64,000 nt of DNA, from contig NZ_JAUOEL010000001.1 of NCBI RefSeq assembly GCF_030540765.1, positions 434,001-498,000 on the forward strand. Direction: 5' to 3'. Below are positions 43,390-53,465 of this stretch, piece after piece. The position numbers and the translations under genes were made by a program. This stretch comes from Flavivirga jejuensis. Lineage in GTDB: Bacteria; Bacteroidota; Bacteroidia; Flavobacteriales; Flavobacteriaceae. The first letter of the stretch is position 1; every line of letters begins with the position of its first letter. Below the pieces are notes generated by a model. The model saw only the letters and a program-made list of their open reading frames with translations, was not told the DNA's origin and did no database searches.

Positions 43390-44508
43390 TTATACTTGTT
43401 TTTTATAGCTCCATACTGCCAATCCATTAAAAATAAAGGCTAAAATAAAGGTATATAGAAATTCAAATCGGATGTTCCAAAAGCCACTACCTTTCATTAA
43501 TACCTTTCGGCTAACGGAAATAAAATGAGCCAAAGGATTTCCAATGGTCAATTGTTGCGCCCATTTTGGCATACTATCTATGGGTGTGAAAAGCCCAGAC
43601 ATCAACACAAAAATGATAATGAAAAAGAAGGCTATAAAAATGGCTTGCTGTTGCGTATCTGCAAAGTTAGAAATGAGTAAACCTAGTCCTAATACAGCAA
43701 TGATATTAAGCGTTGTATAGCCAAAAAGCAAGAGTAGGTTTCCTAGTATAGGAATATTGAAAATTAATTTGCTGGCAATAATGCCTACTGTAAAAAGAAC
43801 CAAGCCTATACATAAAAATGGAATTAATTTCCCTAAAATAAATTGCCATTTTTTAAGCGGTGTTACATTAATCTGTTCAATAGTACCTACTTCTCGTTCT
43901 CGTACAACATTCATCGCCGAAAGTATAATGGTTAATAATGCGGTAAGTTGGGCTAGAATACCTGGAGCCATAAAATGGGTGTATTTTAACTCAGGATTGT
44001 ACCAGTACCTCGAGGAAATGGTGGTGTTACTTTGCTTTGATATGGAAATATCAGGTATTACTTTCTGAATCAGTTTTGCATTGAATGACGCAACGATCGC
44101 TTTTAAGTAGCCCGATCCTACTATGGCCTGTTGCCCATTAGTAGCGTTAACCAGCAACTGTATCTTAGGTTGTTTACCATTTATGTAATCATTTTCAAAA
44201 TTAGGCGGAATCTCTATGACAATATCACTTGTGTTTTCTTGTAAATAAAAGTAGGCTTCATTGGTATTAAAAGAAGTAGCGACAAGTGTTATTCTATCAT
44301 TGGCTATTATTTTATGGTTGAGTGTTCTTGAACTCTCACTTTGATCCATATCCACAACTACTACGTTTACATTTTTAACTTCATTGGAAGCTGCATTTGA
44401 CAATACAATGAGTTGAACGATTGGCAATACAGTCATCATAGGCAAAATAGCCTTGTTACGTATAATCTGTATAAATTCTTTTTGTATGATATATGCTAAA
44501 ATGTTCAT
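43390..44508 (-). CDS. ABC exporter permease (YbhR-like), last gene of exporter operon
   Basis: 372 residues of ABC-2 type: one N-terminal helix, a large periplasmic domain, then five helices; FILGKLIPF and REREVGTIEQINVTPL mark the family. With the next gene it forms the heterodimeric membrane part of the exporter. Its start shares its first base with the last base of the previous gene's stop. Confidence 0.88.
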   Translation of the reverse strand: MNILAYIIQKEFIQIIRNKAILPMMTVLPIVQLIVLSNAASNEVKNVNVVVVDMDQSESSRTLNHKIIANDRITLVATSFNTNEAYFYLQENTSDIVIEIPPNFENDYINGKQPKIQLLVNATNGQQAIVGSGYLKAIVASFNAKLIQKVIPDISISKQSNTTISSRYWYNPELKYTHFMAPGILAQLTALLTIILSAMNVVREREVGTIEQINVTPLKKWQFILGKLIPFLCIGLVLFTVGIIASKLIFNIPILGNLLLLFGYTTLNIIAVLGLGLLISNFADTQQQAIFIAFFFIIIFVLMSGLFTPIDSMPKWAQQLTIGNPLAHFISVSRKVLMKGSGFWNIRFEFLYTFILAFIFNGLAVWSYKKQV

Positions 44509-45620
44509 TATTCTAGTCGTATTTTAAAATTCTTTAAAGCCAAGGCTAGTAATACAATGGTCATTCCTAATAAAATTGCTATTTCAATCACAACGGATTG
44601 AAAACCAACACCACGTAGCATCACAGCTTTTAATATTTCAATAAAATAAGTGGCGGGAACTACAATACTTCCGATGACTTGTAAAACTTGAGGCATGCTC
44701 GAAAAAGGAAAAATGAACCCAGATAAAATCATTGTTGGTAGCATTAATCCCATCATAGAAGTAAGCATGGCCTGTTGTTGTGTTTTTGCCTTGGTAGAAA
44801 TAAATATACCTAAGGACAAGGCCAGAATTACGTATAATAAACAACACAGTAATAATAGGATGAGACTTCCCAGTAAGGGTACTTTAAAGACAAAATGACC
44901 AATAATAAGTACCAGAATAGCATCTATAAATGAGAGTAGCGCATAGGGCGTTACTTTACCTAAAATGATAAGTAAAGGCGGTAGGGGCGAAACCAATAAA
45001 ATTTCCATTGTGCCTAATTCTTTTTCCCGAGTTATAGCAAGAGATGTAAGCATTGCCGAAATAATAAGCAAAATAAAAGCAATGGTTCCTGGAATGAAAT
45101 TATAAGCACTTATCAACTGAGGGTTATATAGCATTCTATCTTCTACAGTAATCAAAAAAGGATTTTCTATTTGTTGTAATTTGTTTTTCTGAAAGCTTTG
45201 AATCAACCTTGTAGTATATTGTACCAAAGTATTTGCTTTATTGGGATCTGACCCGTCCGCAATCAATTGAATAGTTAACGGATTATTTCCATAAAAATCT
45301 GAAGAAAAATCTTTAGGAATTACCATAACCAGAGCTACGTTACCTTCTTTAAAACCACTTTCTATATCGGCTTCTGACGTTAATACTTTATTGAGTGTAA
45401 AATGTCCTGAACTTTGTATATGTTGTATGAGTTGTATACTAGTTTCGTCTTTGGCATAATCTAATACATCTATAGAAGCATCTTTAAATTCGGTACTAAC
45501 AGCATACCCGAAGAGGAGCACTTGTACAATGGGTATTCCAAAAAGAATAATTAGCGTACGTTTATCACGAATAATGTGATATAATTCTTTTTTTACAAAT
45601 GCTTTGAATATTTTGAACAT
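44508..45620 (-). CDS. ABC exporter permease (YbhS-like)
   Basis: 370 residues, same architecture and paralogous to the following gene: PIVQVLLFGYAVSTEFKD, TREKELGTMEILLVSPLPPLLIILGKVTPY. Boundaries overlap by one base with both neighbours, so the whole unit is tightly translated. Partner permease of the same exporter. Confidence 0.88.
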   Translation of the reverse strand: MFKIFKAFVKKELYHIIRDKRTLIILFGIPIVQVLLFGYAVSTEFKDASIDVLDYAKDETSIQLIQHIQSSGHFTLNKVLTSEADIESGFKEGNVALVMVIPKDFSSDFYGNNPLTIQLIADGSDPNKANTLVQYTTRLIQSFQKNKLQQIENPFLITVEDRMLYNPQLISAYNFIPGTIAFILLIISAMLTSLAITREKELGTMEILLVSPLPPLLIILGKVTPYALLSFIDAILVLIIGHFVFKVPLLGSLILLLLCCLLYVILALSLGIFISTKAKTQQQAMLTSMMGLMLPTMILSGFIFPFSSMPQVLQVIGSIVVPATYFIEILKAVMLRGVGFQSVVIEIAILLGMTIVLLALALKNFKIRLE

Positions 45621-46345
45621 TAGCGTGCTAGTTTTAAAAATACTTCGTCCATAGATGTTGCCTCGAATTGTTGCTTTAAATTATGTGGTGTGTCCAATGC
45701 TTCAATTTTTCCTGCAACCATAATAGAAACCCTGTCACAATATTCTGCTTCATCCATATAATGTGTCGTAACAAAAACGGTACGCCCTTTTTCAGCCACC
45801 TGATAAATGGTTTCCCAAAACTGCCTGCGCACTCTAGGATCTACTCCTCCCGTGGGTTCGTCAAGAAAAACAATCTCTGGGTCGTGCACCATAGATATGG
45901 CAAATGCCAAACGTTGTTTCCAACCCAATGGCAAGGATATAACCAATGATTTAGATACTTCTGTTAACTCCAATTCTTCTAGTATTTCTGTGGTTTTTTC
46001 TTTTATCTTTTTCCTTGAAAGCCCATAGATACCCCCATAAAACTGAATATTCTCAACAACGGTCAAGTCATCATACAGGCTAAATTTTTGAGACATATAG
46101 CCGATGTTTTTTTTGATTTTTTCAGGTTCGGTATCTACGTTGAATCCCGCAATTTTCCCCATACCTTCTGTAGGTTTGCTTAAACCAATCAACATTTTTA
46201 TAGCTGTGGTCTTACCAGCGCCATTAGCACCTAAGAATCCAAATATCTCCCCTTTTTTAACTTTAAAAGTAATGGCGTTAACAGCAATAAAATCGCCAAA
46301 ACGCTTGGTGAGTTTGTCTACTTCTATGGCAAAAGGTGTGTTCAT
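45620..46345 (-). CDS. ABC exporter ATPase, second half of a split YbhF
   Basis: 241 residues: Walker A GANGAGKTTA, Q loop MSQKFSLYDDLT, degenerate signature SLPLGWKQRLA, Walker B VFLDEPTGGVDP and H loop FVTTHYMDE. The SLPLGWKQ signature is that of the second domain of E. coli YbhF. It pairs with the ATPase encoded 5 bp upstream. Confidence 0.9.
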   Translation of the reverse strand: MNTPFAIEVDKLTKRFGDFIAVNAITFKVKKGEIFGFLGANGAGKTTAIKMLIGLSKPTEGMGKIAGFNVDTEPEKIKKNIGYMSQKFSLYDDLTVVENIQFYGGIYGLSRKKIKEKTTEILEELELTEVSKSLVISLPLGWKQRLAFAISMVHDPEIVFLDEPTGGVDPRVRRQFWETIYQVAEKGRTVFVTTHYMDEAEYCDRVSIMVAGKIEALDTPHNLKQQFEATSMDEVFLKLAR

Positions 46346-46350
46346 TTTTC

Positions 46351-47262
46351 TTAATTAACAGGTTGGCTTATATCTAAAAATATATCTTCAACTGTAGGTT
46401 GAATTGTTTTTGCTGTATTATCTGAAAACCCCGCAATTTTTAAATGATACTCTATTTGAGAAGCCTCATACGGTTCATTGGTAATCAGGTGTAAATTTTC
46501 TCCAAAAGGCAATACGCTTTCTGTAAAATTCTGTACTCGTAGATAGTTTAATAACCTATACGTTTCTGTAGAATTAATAGAAAACAGCGGTTTTTCAAAA
46601 TTGGAAATCATCTGCTGCGGCGAATCAATTTTTAGAATTTCTCCATTTTGAATAAGGGCTATTCTATCGCACAATGTGGCTTCGTCCATATATGGTGTGC
46701 TTACCAAAATGGCAATTCCTTTGGTTTTTAGTTTCTTAAGCATGTCCCAAAATTCAACACGACTTACGGCATCGACACCTGTGGTAGGTTCATCTAAAAA
46801 TAAGACTTCGGGTTTATGAATTAAAGCACAACACAATGCCAGCTTTTGTTTCATACCTCCCGAAAGTTTACCTGCTAATCTCTTTTTAAAGGGTTCTATC
46901 TGAACATAAATATCCTTTATTAAATCATAGTTGTCTTCTACTGTCGTACCAAATATGGTAGCAAAAAAGGATAGGTTCTCTTCGATGCTTAAATCTTGAT
47001 ACAAAGAAAAGCGTCCTGGCATATAACCTACTTTTTTACGTATTTCTTTGTACTCGTTTACAATTGGGTGTCCTGCAACAGTTCCTTTGCCTTTATCGGC
47101 AAGTAAAAGTGTTGTTAGTATTCTAAAAAGTGTTGACTTTCCTGCACCATCGGGACCAATAAGTCCAAACAATTCGCCTTTACCCACGGTAAAGGACACA
47201 TCGTTCAAAGCTAGCACATCGCCATATTTTTTTGTGATATGTTCTACTGTGATTGCATCCAT
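46351..47262 (-). CDS. ABC exporter ATPase, first half of a split YbhF
   Basis: 303 residues: Walker A GPDGAGKSTL, signature KLSGGMKQKLALCCAL, Walker B VLFLDEPTTGVDA, H loop replaced by STPYMDE, so it may be catalytically impaired. The last 80 residues are a C-terminal extension with no clear domain. Start overlaps the HlyD stop by one base. Confidence 0.9.
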   Translation of the reverse strand: MDAITVEHITKKYGDVLALNDVSFTVGKGELFGLIGPDGAGKSTLFRILTTLLLADKGKGTVAGHPIVNEYKEIRKKVGYMPGRFSLYQDLSIEENLSFFATIFGTTVEDNYDLIKDIYVQIEPFKKRLAGKLSGGMKQKLALCCALIHKPEVLFLDEPTTGVDAVSRVEFWDMLKKLKTKGIAILVSTPYMDEATLCDRIALIQNGEILKIDSPQQMISNFEKPLFSINSTETYRLLNYLRVQNFTESVLPFGENLHLITNEPYEASQIEYHLKIAGFSDNTAKTIQPTVEDIFLDISQPVN

Positions 47263-48170
47263 TAGTCTCTGTTTTTATTAGAAAAAATGACTTCTGCTGG
47301 CATTCCTATTTTAAGCAATCCATCGTTTTTTACTTCTACATCTAACGCATAAACCAGGTTAACTCGTTCCTCTTTGGTCTCAATGCTTTTTGGCGTAAAT
47401 TCAGCTTCATCTGCAATCCACGTAACGGTACCTTCCAGTTCTGTATAACTATCCTCATCACTATCTATTAATACAGTCACCTTATCATTTAATTTCACTT
47501 TTTGAAGTAACAGAGCGCTCGTATATGCTTTTAGTTTTAAAGTGTTTAGATTGGCGATTTTATATAATGGTCTCCCTTGATTTACCAGTTCGGCGACTTC
47601 GACAAAAGTGGATAATACGGTACCTTCTATCGGGTTATTAATCTCATGGTCGTTTATTTTATTTCTCAAAATCGCAATTTGTGCTTCTAAAGGTTTTCGC
47701 TCTGATAAAATGCTGCGATTGGCAATATTAATCTGTCTGGTGGTTGAACTTATTTGCTGGTCGACCACCTCTATTTCGCCATTATAATCATCGAGTTGTT
47801 TTTGGGTTGCTGCCTTTTTTGCTACTAGATTTTGGGTTCTGTTCCGTTCTCTATCTAAATTGCTTTTTCGTTTTAATAAAATAGCAATTTCTGGAGCCGC
47901 TTCCTGTAATTTAAAGTCTAAAGCTTCTAATTTTGCAATGACTTGTAACTTTTCTAAATGCAATTGTGTTGTATCTATTAAGCCTACATTAATCCCTTTT
48001 TGAAGTTTCATGCCTTCCTTTATATTGAATTGTAGTAACTCGCCATTTCCTTTGGCACTAATAGTTACTGAAGTGGCTTCAAAGTTTCCGTAAGCATCGG
48101 ATTTTTCGGAGTTTCCGCAAGAAAGCAGCAATACGACAACGAAGATGGCGGTTATTGATTTTATTTGCAT
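47262..48170 (-). CDS. HlyD-type membrane-fusion lipoprotein of the exporter
   Basis: 303 residues from Met at 48170 (the frame extends to an ATG at 48188 inside the TolC gene, less likely). Lipobox VVLLLSC, biotinyl-lipoyl-like half domains around EATSVTISAKGNGELLQF and NNPIEGTVLSTFVEVAE, and a long coiled-coil hairpin between. Joins the inner-membrane ABC part to the outer-membrane TolC protein. The frame overlaps the preceding gene, so it is coupled. Confidence 0.88.
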   Translation of the reverse strand: MQIKSITAIFVVVLLLSCGNSEKSDAYGNFEATSVTISAKGNGELLQFNIKEGMKLQKGINVGLIDTTQLHLEKLQVIAKLEALDFKLQEAAPEIAILLKRKSNLDRERNRTQNLVAKKAATQKQLDDYNGEIEVVDQQISSTTRQINIANRSILSERKPLEAQIAILRNKINDHEINNPIEGTVLSTFVEVAELVNQGRPLYKIANLNTLKLKAYTSALLLQKVKLNDKVTVLIDSDEDSYTELEGTVTWIADEAEFTPKSIETKEERVNLVYALDVEVKNDGLLKIGMPAEVIFSNKNRD

Positions 48171-48174
48171 AATA

Positions 48175-49449
48175 TTATAATTTTCCAAATAGGGTTAAAT
48201 AATTTACTTGTAATTGTTGTATTTGTATTTGATGTAATTTTAGTTGTTGGCGCGCAGATAATTCGGCATTGATTTGAATGAGGTAATCATTGGCTTTTAT
48301 AACTCCTTCTTGTAACTGTACTTGTGTTTGCGCTAAAATATCTTTTTGAAGTGCTGCTATTTGATTATCCTTTTTCACTTGTTCCTCTAAAGCGACTATT
48401 TTTTCTTGGTATTCCTTTTGCTGTGAAACAATATTAAATTCGAAAGTTTCTTTATTTACTTGTACTTGCTTTACTTGTATCTCTATTTTTTCGCGCTCTT
48501 TTTTAGCTTTGCCCCAATCTAGAATGTTCCAGTTTAAACGAACCCCTCCTAATGCATAGGTCGCATTTGAAACATCGGAAAAATTAACAGGATTCGGATA
48601 TCCAACACCTCCTTGGGCAAATAGCGAAACTTTAGGCTTTCTATTAGCATCTATGGTCTTTCCCTGTGCTTGCAATAGCTTTTTTTTAGAATCATAATAA
48701 ACTTGCTCTGGTCTTGAAATGTTTGGAAGGTTATCCATTAAAACCATTTCGGGAATCTGTAGTATTGTATTTTCTGAAAGGTTCGTTCCTAAAAGTGTAT
48801 TAAGCACTCCTAAATAGGCTTTTATGTCTCCAGTAAGCCGTCCGTCTTCCGATTCTAGTTCCAGCTTGCGAACTTTTAATTTTGAAAGTTCACTTTCTAA
48901 AACTGTTCCATTATCAAAACCAACTTGCAATGATTCTATATTGGTACTAATATCGTGTATAGAGGTATGCAGCAATGATTGGTGTTGGCGTGATAATTTA
49001 ATGACAAAAAAGAGTGCATTCACTCTATCTTTTAGATTGCGAAGCGACACATTAAGTTCTTGTTGATGTACTTCCAACGATGCAACTTCAATATGTTGCC
49101 GAGCCTTGGTTAAACCGCCATCATAGATATTATAGTTAACGTCTACATATCCTTTATAACTCTCCAAAGGAAGGTCTATATTCACAGGTCCTCCAGCCAT
49201 TCCAAAGCTTAAGTTTTCAGATTGTAATTGCCCTGTACCATTAAGGCTAATGGTAGGTAGTTTTCCTTTTTTTATAATGTCTGTATTGGTTTTGGAAACT
49301 TCATTTAACAGCCCTTTATTTAAAAGGAGCGGATAATTTGCCTCTACTTTTACATAGGCTTCCTTCAGGGTTATAATAGACGCGTTTTGTGCGCTTGTTT
49401 TTATACTGAAGCAGAGTATCACAAAGGCTATGATTGTTTTTTGAAACAT
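48175..49449 (-). CDS. TolC-family outer-membrane channel protein of the exporter
   Basis: 424 residues with signal peptide (KTSAQNASI) and the repeated OEP structure of long helices (LEEQVKKDNQIAALQKDILAQTQVQLQEGVIKANDYL) and short strands. Forms the outer-membrane tunnel. It starts 1 bp after the tetR stop region, so tetR is the first gene of the same operon. Confidence 0.88.
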   Translation of the reverse strand: MFQKTIIAFVILCFSIKTSAQNASIITLKEAYVKVEANYPLLLNKGLLNEVSKTNTDIIKKGKLPTISLNGTGQLQSENLSFGMAGGPVNIDLPLESYKGYVDVNYNIYDGGLTKARQHIEVASLEVHQQELNVSLRNLKDRVNALFFVIKLSRQHQSLLHTSIHDISTNIESLQVGFDNGTVLESELSKLKVRKLELESEDGRLTGDIKAYLGVLNTLLGTNLSENTILQIPEMVLMDNLPNISRPEQVYYDSKKKLLQAQGKTIDANRKPKVSLFAQGGVGYPNPVNFSDVSNATYALGGVRLNWNILDWGKAKKEREKIEIQVKQVQVNKETFEFNIVSQQKEYQEKIVALEEQVKKDNQIAALQKDILAQTQVQLQEGVIKANDYLIQINAELSARQQLKLHQIQIQQLQVNYLTLFGKL

Positions 49450-49450
49450 T

Positions 49451-50062
49451 TTATACTTTTATTGAATTAATTATAAAATTCGCGACTTCTATTTTACGCT
49501 CATCTAACAGCTTTTCAAACGGAAGGTCTTCCATATTTGTAACTGCTTTGAGTAGGGGGGCTCCAAGAAACGGAAAAGCATTTAGGGCAATTATATTGAT
49601 GAATAACTGCTCGGCATTGGTGGGTTTTAGATGTCCATTTTTCACTTCGTCGTCTAGTTGTTTCTTAAATTTTTCAAGGTTAGGAAGCCCTATTTCCTTT
49701 TTTATATTTAAGATGAATTCTGGATTTCTGTTAAGTTCCTGAAAAATAAAACCTGGCATATATGGATGTTCCATAATAAATGAAATATGGTTAAAAGTGA
49801 AATTTCTAATCTTCTCTTCAATAGATAAATCATCATTCAAAATTTCACCAAGATGTGTTGTCATCAATTTAAATGCATTTTTAAATACTGCTTCAAACAA
49901 AAGTTGTTTACTCCTATAATAATAATGAAGCATTGCCTTATTGATACCAGCTTCATCTGCTATTTCTTGCATTCTAGCACCATCCATTCCTTTAAGCTGA
50001 AACACACTTTTGGCAGCTTCTAATATGAGGTTTTCAGTAGTTGTATTTTTTTCTTTTGTCAT
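49451..50062 (-). CDS. TetR/AcrR-family repressor of the exporter operon
   Basis: 203 residues: N-terminal HTH in 8-55 (ILEAAKSVFQLKGMDGARMQEIADEAGINKAMLHYYYRSKQLLFE is its span, seen in pieces), C-terminal ligand domain without family assignment. It is the leading gene of the seven-gene unit tetR-tolC-hlyD-ABC-ABC-permease-permease, as with CecR and YbhGFSR in E. coli. Probably autoregulates through the dyads at 50067-50091, and a ligand exported by the pump would release it. Confidence 0.9.
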   Translation of the reverse strand: MTKEKNTTTENLILEAAKSVFQLKGMDGARMQEIADEAGINKAMLHYYYRSKQLLFEAVFKNAFKLMTTHLGEILNDDLSIEEKIRNFTFNHISFIMEHPYMPGFIFQELNRNPEFILNIKKEIGLPNLEKFKKQLDDEVKNGHLKPTNAEQLFINIIALNAFPFLGAPLLKAVTNMEDLPFEKLLDERKIEVANFIINSIKV

Positions 50063-50066
50063 TATT

Positions 50067-50101
50067 AACTATTTGGTTTAACTTTTTGGTTGATAAATAT
50101 A
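50067..50101 (-). promoter_or_regulatory. tetR operator pair and -7 box
   Basis: Plus-strand AACTATTTGGTT (50067-50078) and AACTTTTTGGTT (50080-50091), centres 13 bp apart with one T between. On the minus strand TATATTTA (50094-50101) is the -7 box; the predicted transcript start falls inside the second dyad and the tetR ATG is 4 bp past the first. A bound repressor would cover the start point. Confidence 0.75.
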
Positions 50102-50182
50102 TAAAAAAACTAAAAATAGGAATTTTACTTTAGCCTGTTGTTAGTTTAAATTCATTCATGTGAAGCAACGGTTTATAATTTT

Positions 50183-51304
50183 TTAGTTTTTTTTATTGAT
50201 AGGAATTATAATCTGTCTGAAACGATCGCTATTCTTTGGTTTGATAGCAAAATAAATCTGAGTGTGGTTTTCCAGATCAATATCAGAAGTATTATATCCA
50301 AGTATATTATAAGAATCTTCATTCCATGAAGATACTATCCCACCTGGAGCTGGTATACTGGAATACCATCCATTTTTATGAATATCATCAAAGGCATAAT
50401 GCACTTCAAATTCTAACTGGCCTTCATTTTTATCCCGAGACCAGCCAAGAATAAATTCATTATTAATATTATTATAAGTTCCTGTAAGTGTACAAATTTG
50501 TTTAATGTTCTCATCATTTTCATCCCTGTAAAATTCAAATCGGTCAAAATAAAAAGCTGAAGAATTTGTAGCAAAATCTCCCCAAATATAAAACCTGGTT
50601 AAAGCATCAAAATAATTGAAGTCTTGTTCGTTTGTTGGGTATTGCTTTACTCCTTGTTCTATATTACCGTTATCACCTCTATTGTGAGTAGGGCGAAAAT
50701 CAATAATTACTTGTTGCCAGTTGCCACCAGCAGATTCAAGATTAAAATAATGATGATAATGTCCGCCTCCAGATTCTGCACTACTAGGATTTCCATTCCT
50801 GGCACGAAAATATGTGCCAAAATGTAGGTTTGGTTGACCAGTGACCTTTCTTTCTATCCCTTCAGGTAATTTGATCCAAAATCGCAAACGATTATATGTG
50901 TTTTCTTTCCATTCTTGCCCTTCATCTATATGTTGTCTTGTCCAATGCCAGACATAATCAGTTTGCGAGTAATTATACATTTGCAGATATAATGGCCCAC
51001 TGGTCATTATAGCCTTTAATGATTTGTCGCCAGAAACCGAATAACTGGATGATAGCTCTGTTTTCCCTATGCTTTTTGAACTATTAGGGTAAATATTAAA
51101 AAGGTATTTGTGTTGATCTTGTGGTTGATTAGGATTTATAATGATAACTCCATCTCTTTCAAAATCTGAAAGAATAACAGATTCTTTAATTTCTTGACCA
51201 GTAGAATTATCTGGGATGTTTGTACTAATTATATTAATCTCATTAGAACTACAGGAAGTAAAAAATAATAATAACAAAAGTAAGAGTACATTGTAAGTAC
51301 GCAT
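50183..51304 (-). CDS. Secreted lipoprotein with carbohydrate-binding-like beta-sandwich
   Basis: 373 residues, signal peptide with lipobox LFFTSC. The mature part has strands in the style of jelly-roll modules (ILSDFERDGV, SYSVSGDKSLKAIM, YNRLRFWIKLPEG, NWQQVIIDFRPTH, FYFDRFEFYRDEN), about 45-255, followed by a second beta domain to the end. Similar domains bind polysaccharides, but no polysaccharide-utilisation genes are near. Its upstream region is a decayed second tetR with an intact promoter/operator, which may now control it. Confidence 0.65.
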   Translation of the reverse strand: MRTYNVLLLLLLLFFTSCSSNEINIISTNIPDNSTGQEIKESVILSDFERDGVIIINPNQPQDQHKYLFNIYPNSSKSIGKTELSSSYSVSGDKSLKAIMTSGPLYLQMYNYSQTDYVWHWTRQHIDEGQEWKENTYNRLRFWIKLPEGIERKVTGQPNLHFGTYFRARNGNPSSAESGGGHYHHYFNLESAGGNWQQVIIDFRPTHNRGDNGNIEQGVKQYPTNEQDFNYFDALTRFYIWGDFATNSSAFYFDRFEFYRDENDENIKQICTLTGTYNNINNEFILGWSRDKNEGQLEFEVHYAFDDIHKNGWYSSIPAPGGIVSSWNEDSYNILGYNTSDIDLENHTQIYFAIKPKNSDRFRQIIIPINKKN

Positions 51305-51312
51305 GGTAATTG

Positions 51313-51520
51313 GTGTTTTTGGGGTTAAATATTAATTATTTAATTCAAGTTTTTAAAAATAGATTTTAAACTATTGCTTCCTTTTGTAATGGTATGATGT
51401 TCTATTAATTGAAACTCATATGCAATATTCTTTTATTAGTATCCATCCTTTACATTAAAACATACTTTTTAGCTTTTAAACATTAAGTTTTTAGTGATTA
51501 TATTTCTTGTTTTTTACTAT
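51313..51520 (-). pseudogene. Decayed second copy of tetR
   Basis: Aligns without gaps to the start of the live tetR: the position of ATG is ATA at 51520, then about seven stop codons, with surviving traces KS-MF-KG, INR, HYKRKQ, FKIYF against KSVF-KG, INK, HYYYRSKQ, FEAVF. The similarity runs about 65 codons, up to the start of the lipoprotein gene. The 5' flank (operators and -7 box) is conserved. No function as protein. Confidence 0.7.
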
Positions 51521-51524
51521 AATA

Positions 51525-51559
51525 AACCAAAAGGTTTAACCATATGGTTAACAAATATA
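51525..51559 (-). promoter_or_regulatory. Conserved operator pair and promoter before the decayed tetR
   Basis: Plus-strand AACCAAAAGGTT (51525-51536) and AACCATATGGTT (51538-51549), both perfect dyads, 13 bp apart with one T between; -7 box TATATTTG on the minus strand at 51552-51559, 3 bp from the second dyad exactly as at the live tetR. It points toward the lipoprotein gene 220 bp downstream. Confidence 0.75.
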
Positions 51560-51705
51560 CTAAAAAACTAATAATGATAATTTTTTACTTTGAAAATTTT
51601 CGATTAATCAATATTTATATTGAAGAAAAATGACTCTTAATGTCTATAAAATATAAGCTAAGGTCTCTTAGAATTAAATAATATTATCAACTCATTTTCG
51701 TTTTT

Positions 51706-52035
51706 CTAAGTTATTAGTTTGAATTCAACTATTTCTAATTCATTACCATTTTAGATTAAGGATAGTTGGTACTGACCTACATAAAACTTTCTTGTGGTAA
51801 TCAATTTAAATGATTGTTTTCTGTTTATTAAAGATGTTGATTCTGCTAAATAATCTTTCTCACTAATTTTAAATACTTTTTTCGATAATGAGCTATTAGC
51901 TTTTTGATAATACACGCCATATTTAAGTCTGATTTTTGAATTTTTCCTATCTGTATTTATAAGTTTGAACGAAAACTCTAAATATTTTCCAATTTTAACA
52001 ATTGGAGTGAGAATTTTAAAGTCAATTATTTTGAT
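51706..52035 (-). pseudogene. C-terminal remnant of an AlkD-type DNA alkylation repair protein; gap 51305-52214
   Basis: Frame IDFKILTPIVKIGKYLEFSF..RLKYGVYYQKANSSLSKKVFKISEKDY..NRKQSFKLITTRKFYVGQYQLSLI, stop TAA, then in the same frame NGNELEIVEFKLIT and stop. Flavobacterial AlkD-like proteins end with such a RKQSFK.ITTRKF.G.HQLSLIVNG segment, so one sense codon became a stop and the N-terminal HEAT part is lost. The remaining sequence to 52214 contains a hairpin (52126-52156) and nothing else clear. Confidence 0.7.
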
Positions 52036-52125
52036 TTATCAATAGTATCAAAACCAAATAGTTCCATTTTATTCCATTCAGTACAGAAAATTTGATTTTA
52101 AAATACGTTCTTATTAAAATTAGGA

Positions 52126-52156
52126 GCAACCTCTCCTGGGCAATCGGAGAGGTTGT
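52126..52156. terminator. Strong hairpin GCAACCTCTCC/GGAGAGGTTGT
   Basis: 11-bp stem with one G-T pair and a 9-base loop, 59 bp past the stop of the SRPBCC lipoprotein gene (minus). Resembles the ACCTCTCC dyad at 376-394, so it may be a repeat family member that works as terminator. Confidence 0.6.
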
Positions 52157-52214
52157 TAAAAAACTCTTTGGAATATATGTTTTTAAGAGCCGAACCCATT
52201 TATTCTTGTTTTGA

Positions 52215-52826
52215 TTATTCTATATAATTCTCAATAATCTTACCATCAAATTTTGCGATTAATTGTTCTGCCATATCGTCAAAAACATCTACTAAAGTTG
52301 TTTTATTCATTTCCAACATTTCTTGATTTTCATGATTAAAATGCATATCCCAGGTTAGTATTGTTTTATCTCCTTTTGCTTCTAGTGTGGTTAGAGAAAA
52401 ATTTTCAGTAAACCCAAACTCGGTTGCCTCTTTTTTGCTTGAAGCCCAACCTAAATCTGTTTCTTGCCAAACTACTTTTTCGGTATGAATTATACCTTTT
52501 TCACCTTCCTCAATTGGTTTAAAGTAGCAAGTGTATGAAGTGCATTTCTCGTTTTTTGTTTCTGTTTCTACTTTTTCTAAACCAGCACTAAATTTAGGCA
52601 TATTTGCAGGGTCGCCAACTAAATTATACACTTCTGAAGTTGGCTGATTTAATTCTAAAACCATTCGATTCCTTAAAGGGCTATTTACAAAACTACTTGC
52701 TTTAGGATAAGTTAATATTGCTTTTTTTTCTGTTTTAGTTGTTTGCTTTTCACTCATTTTTACTTTGTTTTGACCATTGCAACTTATCATTAATAAGATT
52801 ACAGGTATCATTAATAATTGTTTCAT
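52215..52826 (-). CDS. SRPBCC-domain lipoprotein
   Basis: 203 residues: lipobox LLMISC, a short charged linker, then a polyketide-cyclase/START-like domain (LELNQPTSEVYNLVGDPANMPKFSAGLEKVE, GWASSKKEATEFGFTENFSL, LTWDMHFNH). A minus-strand -7 box TACTTTTG is present at 52853-52860. Probably binds a hydrophobic ligand in the periplasm. No partner gene. Confidence 0.7.
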   Translation of the reverse strand: MKQLLMIPVILLMISCNGQNKVKMSEKQTTKTEKKAILTYPKASSFVNSPLRNRMVLELNQPTSEVYNLVGDPANMPKFSAGLEKVETETKNEKCTSYTCYFKPIEEGEKGIIHTEKVVWQETDLGWASSKKEATEFGFTENFSLTTLEAKGDKTILTWDMHFNHENQEMLEMNKTTLVDVFDDMAEQLIAKFDGKIIENYIE

Positions 52827-53120
52827 TTTATATCTTTTAAGTTAACTTGATACAAAAGTAAATTGGGGGAGTGACAACCCTATGTCAACTAGGATTAAGT
52901 AATTCGATAAAATAATTTGAAAGATTAAAATATTTCTGATAATTAAAGTTTTGTGTGCTTGTATTTGATTCTAAAATTAAACTCTCTAACTTCATTCCAT
53001 ATCTTCAACATGATATGTAAATAGAAATAACCTTCTTAGTTTTAATACACGAAATTTGTTAGCAAAAGTTTCTGTCTATTGCTTTGCAACAGTATCATAG
53101 ACAGCGCTGATAATATTTAA

Positions 53121-53465
53121 TTATTGTTCTATATCTAATAAATCAATTTTATCATGTGGTTCAAGAGGATTTGAATATGCAACAATTACATAATTTTTAA
53201 GTCTTCGTTCTGCTTCACATAAAATATTTAGTTGTTTATTTTGCAGAACTGCTGATTTAAAAAGTGAACAAAGTCCATTCTTACTTTTCTTATGTTTACA
53301 ATTAGAACCTTTGTAAATGGCAATATTTGCCCCCAGCATTTCTGTTAGAATATTAGTTTCCTCAATAATCTGCTTATTGGGTTCAGCAAGTTCACTCAAA
53401 TCAACAAAACCTCGGATTTCTTCTGGTAGCCAAGAAGGATAAAAATTATTCTCAACATTTTGCAT
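53121..53465 (-). CDS. Small protein of unknown function (114 aa)
   Basis: 114 residues, not recognised. Middle part carries a CKHKKSKNGLCSLFK stretch with two of four cysteines, perhaps a metal site, and a C-terminal LCEAERRLKNYVIVAY. No signal peptide. The gene is isolated (262 bp to the next gene, 295 bp to the previous), and sits in the fragment-rich island. Confidence 0.5.
   Translation of the reverse strand: MQNVENNFYPSWLPEEIRGFVDLSELAEPNKQIIEETNILTEMLGANIAIYKGSNCKHKKSKNGLCSLFKSAVLQNKQLNILCEAERRLKNYVIVAYSNPLEPHDKIDLLDIEQ

Follow-up and report, generated by a model that had tools for sequence, protein, structure and literature searches.

Can a gene come under the control of a repressor through a dead copy of that repressor's own gene? 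The question is raised by a locus in the window, the whole analysed stretch of 64,000 nucleotides of Flavivirga jejuensis DNA, in which a lipoprotein gene lies behind a promoter and operator (site B) whose tetR gene has decayed. On the minus strand, the order is site B, the decayed 5' half of tetR, the lipoprotein gene, a second promoter and operator (site A), the live tetR and the exporter genes to 44508 (Table 1). The exporter genes are on the same strand as the live tetR and probably form an operon with it.

Table 1. Features of the locus, in positions of the window
Feature	Position	Strand	Basis or remark
Exporter genes: outer membrane efflux protein, HlyD-type adaptor, two ABC ATPases, ABC-2 permease	44508..49449	-	
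Live TetR-family repressor, 203 aa	49451..50062	-	PF00440
Operator A, dyads AACCAAAAAGTT and AACCAAATAGTT, single A between	50067..50091	-	
-7 box TATATTTA of the live tetR promoter (site A)	50094..50101	-	
Lipoprotein gene, 373 aa	50183..51304	-	lipobox-like FTSC, read by eye
Predicted 5' mRNA leader of the lipoprotein gene (about 243 nt), made up mainly of operator and tetR relic	51305..51547	-	-7 box and relic alignment
Decayed tetR 5' half, codons 1 to about 67	~51331..51520	-	gapped alignment
Operator B, dyads AACCATATGGTT and AACCTTTTGGTT, single A between, centres 13 bp apart	51525..51549	-	
-7 box TATATTTG of site B	51552..51559	-	sigma-A type TAnnTTTG

A second copy of the tetR promoter and operator

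Read on the minus strand, site A consists of TATATTTA, TC, operator A, four nucleotides and the ATG of tetR, and site B of TATATTTG, TT, operator B, four nucleotides and ATA (51520-51518). An earlier note, made from the DNA of the window, had aligned the two regions base by base, with dyad centres 13 bp apart and the start-codon position 4 bp further on, and this geometry is indeed the same at both sites. The -7 box that it had placed 3 bp from the dyad is present, at a distance of 2 bases from the outer dyad at both A and B. Its description of both B dyads as perfect holds for the half-sites, as all eight half-site bases of each dyad match AACC/GGTT, but only the dyad at 51538-51549 is a full 12-base palindrome. 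The similarity between A and B begins about 30 bases 5' of the -7 boxes (at 50131 and 51591) and extends to about codon 67 of tetR; a looser alignment continues with many gaps into the lipoprotein gene, and this extension is probably noise. Site B is a second copy of the promoter and operator of the live tetR.

The sequence that follows site B is a tetR pseudogene, homologous to tetR and in register with site B, with start and frame lost. The earlier note had called this coding sequence wrecked, and the start codon has in fact changed from ATG to ATA and several stops and indels are present. The relic reaches almost to the lipoprotein gene; its 3' end at about codon 67 is approximate, as the alignment input was the leader and the first 240 bases of tetR only. 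Against these 240 bases of the live tetR, the relic has a gapped local score of 111, which none of 2000 dinucleotide shuffles reached (maximum 75, z 9.7), and the relic of F. aquimarina KCTC 52353 (G004) scores 104 in the equivalent test (maximum 80, 0 of 2000, z 8.3). For the coding part of the A/B pair alone, the score is 139 versus a maximum of 106 over 960 other stretches of the window. A blastn comparison of the F. aquimarina region with the window pairs the F. aquimarina site B with 50126-49981 (73%, 148 columns, E 2.6e-12), which corresponds to site A and the first ~27 codons of tetR. Of 82 coding columns conserved in the family, 58 are retained in the relic. The two Flavivirga tetR genes align with the relic at scores of 122 and 111 and the best of 29 other orthologs at 108; for the F. 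aquimarina relic these scores are 116, 104 and 101. The slightly better Flavivirga scores are compatible with an origin of the relic as a duplicate of the local tetR, without being proof of it.

Just upstream of site B, at 51612, the F. aquimarina sequence diverges from the window and from there pairs only with scattered pieces of 53.1-55.6 kb; given this divergence 5' of B (51612-53132), the upstream flank is a site of gene turnover. On the minus strand, 51720-52040 contains about 94 stop-free codons between stops and resembles a fragment of a further decayed gene; a Pfam search of this stretch gave no match at E 1.

Distribution of the operator and of the locus

The live gene is assigned to the TetR/AcrR repressor family by its match to PF00440 (TetR_N helix-turn-helix; 53.9 bits against a cut-off of 24, E 1.5e-14). 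In gene content, the locus resembles CecR (YbiH)-YbhGFSR of Escherichia coli, where a TetR-family gene likewise accompanies ABC exporter genes. The best NCBIfam match of the adaptor is PRK03598 (secretion protein HlyD; 96.2 bits, below the cut-off of 393), which we take to be the model of YbhG. The CecR operon, as outlined in PMC7190983, combines the TetR-family gene with genes for a membrane fusion protein, an ATP-binding component and membrane components. Unlike in CecR-YbhGFSR, tetR of the window is followed by an outer membrane efflux gene, and its product, at only 16.8 bits, scores below the cut-off that applies to the CecR model (365).

Orthologs of tetR are present in 65 of 397 Flavobacteriaceae genomes (E 1e-35), and the operator pattern TTAACC-N4-GGTT-A-AACY-N4-RGTT was defined from them. 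In the orthologs, the tetR start is preceded by TAnnTTTG and, just behind this box, by two AACY-N4-RGTT dyads at a distance of 13 bp. Site B is built alike, except that its regulator gene has died and the gene behind the operator codes for a lipoprotein. The 397 genomes contain 39 exact operator sites, 38 of them no more than 90 bases 5' of a tetR ortholog (in G244 read on the opposite strand); the only exact site with no tetR ortholog behind it is site B, whose tetR is the relic. This agrees with the earlier note, which had placed the lipoprotein gene behind the operator of the exporter's repressor: site B has the exact family-wide form. Sites with one mismatch precede tetR in 16 of 23 cases. 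Downstream of four of the seven one-mismatch sites away from tetR (L047, L056, L058 and L059), nothing tetR-like was found in frames read by eye; the other three (G374:C52, G221 and G402) were outside this reading. An operator site with no more than one mismatch is present at 53 of the 65 orthologs, and the 12 that lack one include the live tetR of the window: site A has 2 mismatches in its own genome (G000) and also 2 in F. aquimarina, versus 0 for site B of the window and 1, counted from the sequence, for site B of F. aquimarina.

The bare two-dyad pattern is not rare by composition, and it is its association with tetR rather than its count that carries the argument: in the genome of the window, each strand has 7 matches to a reversed control pattern versus 2 to the degenerate two-dyad pattern, and control matches are present in many genomes (7 and 4 in G000). 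Judged by this association, the two-dyad operator is the predicted autoregulatory site of the TetR orthologs across the family; for an exporter repressor that is common in flavobacteria (65 of 397 genomes), this defines the likely operator. Over residues 28-60, the live TetR does not differ from the ortholog L011, whose operator matches the pattern exactly; by its residues, the helix-turn-helix is of the family type, which makes binding of the live TetR to site B likely.

A second operator copy was searched for in about 1.5 kb, with 3 mismatches allowed, at 56 loci (54 from relatives in 42 genomes, plus L001 and L005, the F. aquimarina site B lying on another contig), and a separate one was found in the locus of the window (L001) only. 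The remaining double matches are one array read on both strands, with the exception of L069 (G244), where overlapping operator arrays, read on opposite strands, precede tetR and may form a divergent promoter.

Within the genus, 2 of 12 genomes, the one of the window included, have tetR at E 1e-20 (the second is F. aquimarina) and three have the lipoprotein at E 1e-10: that of the window, F. aquimarina (93%) and F. algicola Y03 (G002; 39%, L008 9927-11126). Among the drawn 397 family genomes, only the genome of the window has the lipoprotein at E 1e-30, and a search of GTDB r220 contigs with an alignment of three lipoprotein sequences returned the same two relatives only. A DNA search of the 12 Flavivirga genomes with the B region gave matches in nine, but the region as a whole is present only in the genome of the window and in F. 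aquimarina, all other matches being short and weak (E 2.4e-4 or worse). The arrangement of site B, relic and lipoprotein gene was thus found in two genomes only; F. algicola has no such operator over 17 kb of sequence surrounding its lipoprotein homologue.

In F. aquimarina, site B, the relic and the lipoprotein gene are at the end of one contig and tetR with site A and the exporter genes at the end of another. The first contig end cuts an NHL-like gene and the second a similar tail; the two contigs probably join, with two extra genes between the lipoprotein gene and tetR. A long palindrome after the F. aquimarina lipoprotein gene (L006 11140-11225, seen by eye) is a possible terminator.

The lipoprotein gene and its presumed promoter

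The lipoprotein has no Pfam or NCBIfam match at E 0.01; a DUF4858 match at E 0.08 belongs to one of the three aligned lipoprotein sequences, not to that of the window. Comparison with solved structures gave nothing significant (best E 0.24), and the structure model, which has low confidence (mean pLDDT 46.9), gave no fold match at E 0.001 or better. The C-terminal third is modelled as a better-supported beta domain, the rest with low confidence.

Between the window and F. aquimarina, the lipoprotein gene has a dN of 0.029 and a dS of 0.124 and looks to be under purifying selection, so that it should need a promoter. The Bacteroidetes sigma-A motif TAnnTTTG is matched by TATATTTG (51559-51552), the box of site B, and this is its only occurrence within the 396 bases upstream of the lipoprotein start (51305-51700, minus strand). 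The F. aquimarina counterpart of the box is CATATTTG, and a search of the 500 bases 5' of that genome's lipoprotein start gave no further TAnnTTTG. With the box at -12 to -5, the position given for Flavobacterium psychrophilum in PMC9723704, the transcription start at B would be expected at about 51547. The B dyads would then span about -2 to +23. This is a usual place for an operator that acts by steric block. A terminator scan of 49400-52300 with a crude consensus has a single match, at 52122-52137, and therefore none between the lipoprotein gene and tetR.

On balance we lean towards a reading in which the captured promoter of the dead tetR drives the lipoprotein gene and the live TetR controls site B alongside the exporter. 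A duplication of tetR, complete or of at least the promoter and 5' half, would have placed a copy upstream of the live tetR and exporter genes, the coding part of this copy would have died and the lipoprotein gene would have come to lie directly behind the relic, with the promoter of the dead gene becoming the lipoprotein promoter. The live TetR would still bind B, cover the transcription start and repress the lipoprotein gene together with its own operon and the exporter, until one common inducer ligand releases both. The neighbouring repressor is probably what targets site B, and co-regulation of lipoprotein and exporter by it is plausible on the sequences compared; the coupling may either have been selected or be a mere leftover.

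Promoter capture, in which a gene comes under the intact promoter left by a decayed neighbour, is a general phenomenon. It leaves a relic leader in front of a live downstream gene, as is likewise found at B; unlike in the general case, the promoter captured at B also has the operator of an adjacent paralogous repressor that has survived. The B locus neatly illustrates the known processes of duplication, decay and promoter capture. What is unusual is the origin of the one exception to an operator with otherwise a single target: a dead copy of the regulator. In the part of the literature searched, no title or abstract opening dealt with this operator or with the capture, in bacteria, of the operator of a dead repressor. 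Should the live TetR control B, the locus would be a readable example of a single-target regulator gaining a target, one that would have arisen through the decay of a tetR copy and not through the evolution of a new site.

Retention of the switch and rival explanations

That selection kept the switch while the protein decayed, as the earlier note had suggested, is not established by the comparisons made here. The note had proposed to compare the decay of dyads and coding remnant in related genomes; one such genome is available, F. aquimarina, and there the rates are indistinguishable: 3 of the 35 bases of box and operator differ between the two genomes (8.6%) versus 16 of the 214 bases of the leader (7.5%, plus 7 gap columns), with a Fisher p of 0.74 that has low power at 35 bases. 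These rates are compatible with neutral drift. Two of the changes in F. aquimarina, the first T of the -7 box to C and one dyad G to A, affect bases that are invariant in 29 of 29 family loci, and the switch may therefore be weakening there; the new dyad base A is also present in operator A of both genomes.

For the older branch, the consensus was taken from the loci of 29 relatives, the best-scoring of the 65 orthologs, with columns conserved in at least 95%, and a column was counted as kept if either relic copy keeps the base. Retained are 23 of 24 promoter and operator columns and 17 of the 18 in the dyads, versus 59 of 82 columns of the relic coding sequence, 10 of which are deleted in both copies. 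For promoter and operator together, the difference from the coding sequence has a one-sided Fisher p of 0.009 (binomial 0.004), or 0.084 (binomial 0.053) when the deleted columns are set aside; for the dyads alone the values are 0.034 (binomial 0.021), with a binomial p of 0.138 without deleted columns. Copy by copy, with two thresholds and both treatments of gaps, the two-sided Fisher p for the dyads is between 0.034 and 0.51 (0.034 to 0.14 with deletions as losses, 0.11 to 0.51 with deletions excluded). Retention of the switch on the older branch is suggestive at most.

Site B may also be a passive leftover of a duplication accident that perhaps drives the lipoprotein gene but whose control by TetR is unselected and unneeded, the operator decaying like its surroundings. 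We give this close to an even chance: the equal change rates between the two genomes, the altered -7 box of F. aquimarina and the copy-by-copy dyad values all suit it, while the older-branch figures argue against it, as does the dyad change in F. aquimarina, which yields a base that operator A carries too. Rather unlikely, in our view, is that only the promoter was kept, for a lipoprotein that needs the -7 region, and that the short dyads survived by chance. The apparent purifying selection on the lipoprotein and the lack of a second TAnnTTTG in the 396 bases upstream are in line with this, and 18 conserved dyad columns are few for a test of decay; however, the dyads lie at and beyond the expected transcription start, a place in which they would not be preserved by promoter function alone, and it is the -7 box itself that has changed in F. 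aquimarina.

A role of B for the tetR and exporter genes themselves, as a second, distal autoregulated promoter whose transcripts read through the lipoprotein gene or as an extra site that titrates TetR, appears improbable. B is on the same strand, has the canonical -7 box that A lacks and is separated from tetR by no match of the terminator scan, but that scan is a crude consensus, and F. aquimarina has the palindrome after the lipoprotein gene and, if its contigs join as proposed, apparently two further genes in between. That the B dyads are a chance match with no tetR relic behind them is scarcely credible. The number of control matches would allow it, and nhmmer with 31 tetR coding blocks, starting at codon 10, did not recover the relic; against it stand the shuffle tests of the coding part in each of two genomes, the blastn match and the exact geometry of dyads, -7 box and start position. 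Going beyond the favoured reading, capture of the dead tetR promoter with control by the live TetR, the operator of a dead repressor could be seen as a ready-made part that wired the lipoprotein gene (and here perhaps, by read-through, tetR and the exporter) into the exporter regulon, with B now the tighter and stronger TetR-controlled promoter of the two; we consider this doubtful.

Site A has changed as well. In the genome of the window, 21 of the 24 conserved promoter and operator columns are kept at A versus 23 at B, and in F. aquimarina 22 versus 21. The final G of the -7 box, present in 26 of 29 family loci, is an A in site A of both Flavivirga genomes. In both, operator A has drifted from the family form (its first dyad ends in AGTT) and the tetR frame is intact; given the drift of its operator, the live TetR may have drifted too. 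The synonymous divergence of tetR between the two genomes is 0.27; the next two exporter genes have values of 0.07 and 0.08, and the lipoprotein gene has 0.12. With its high value, tetR may have a separate recombination history.
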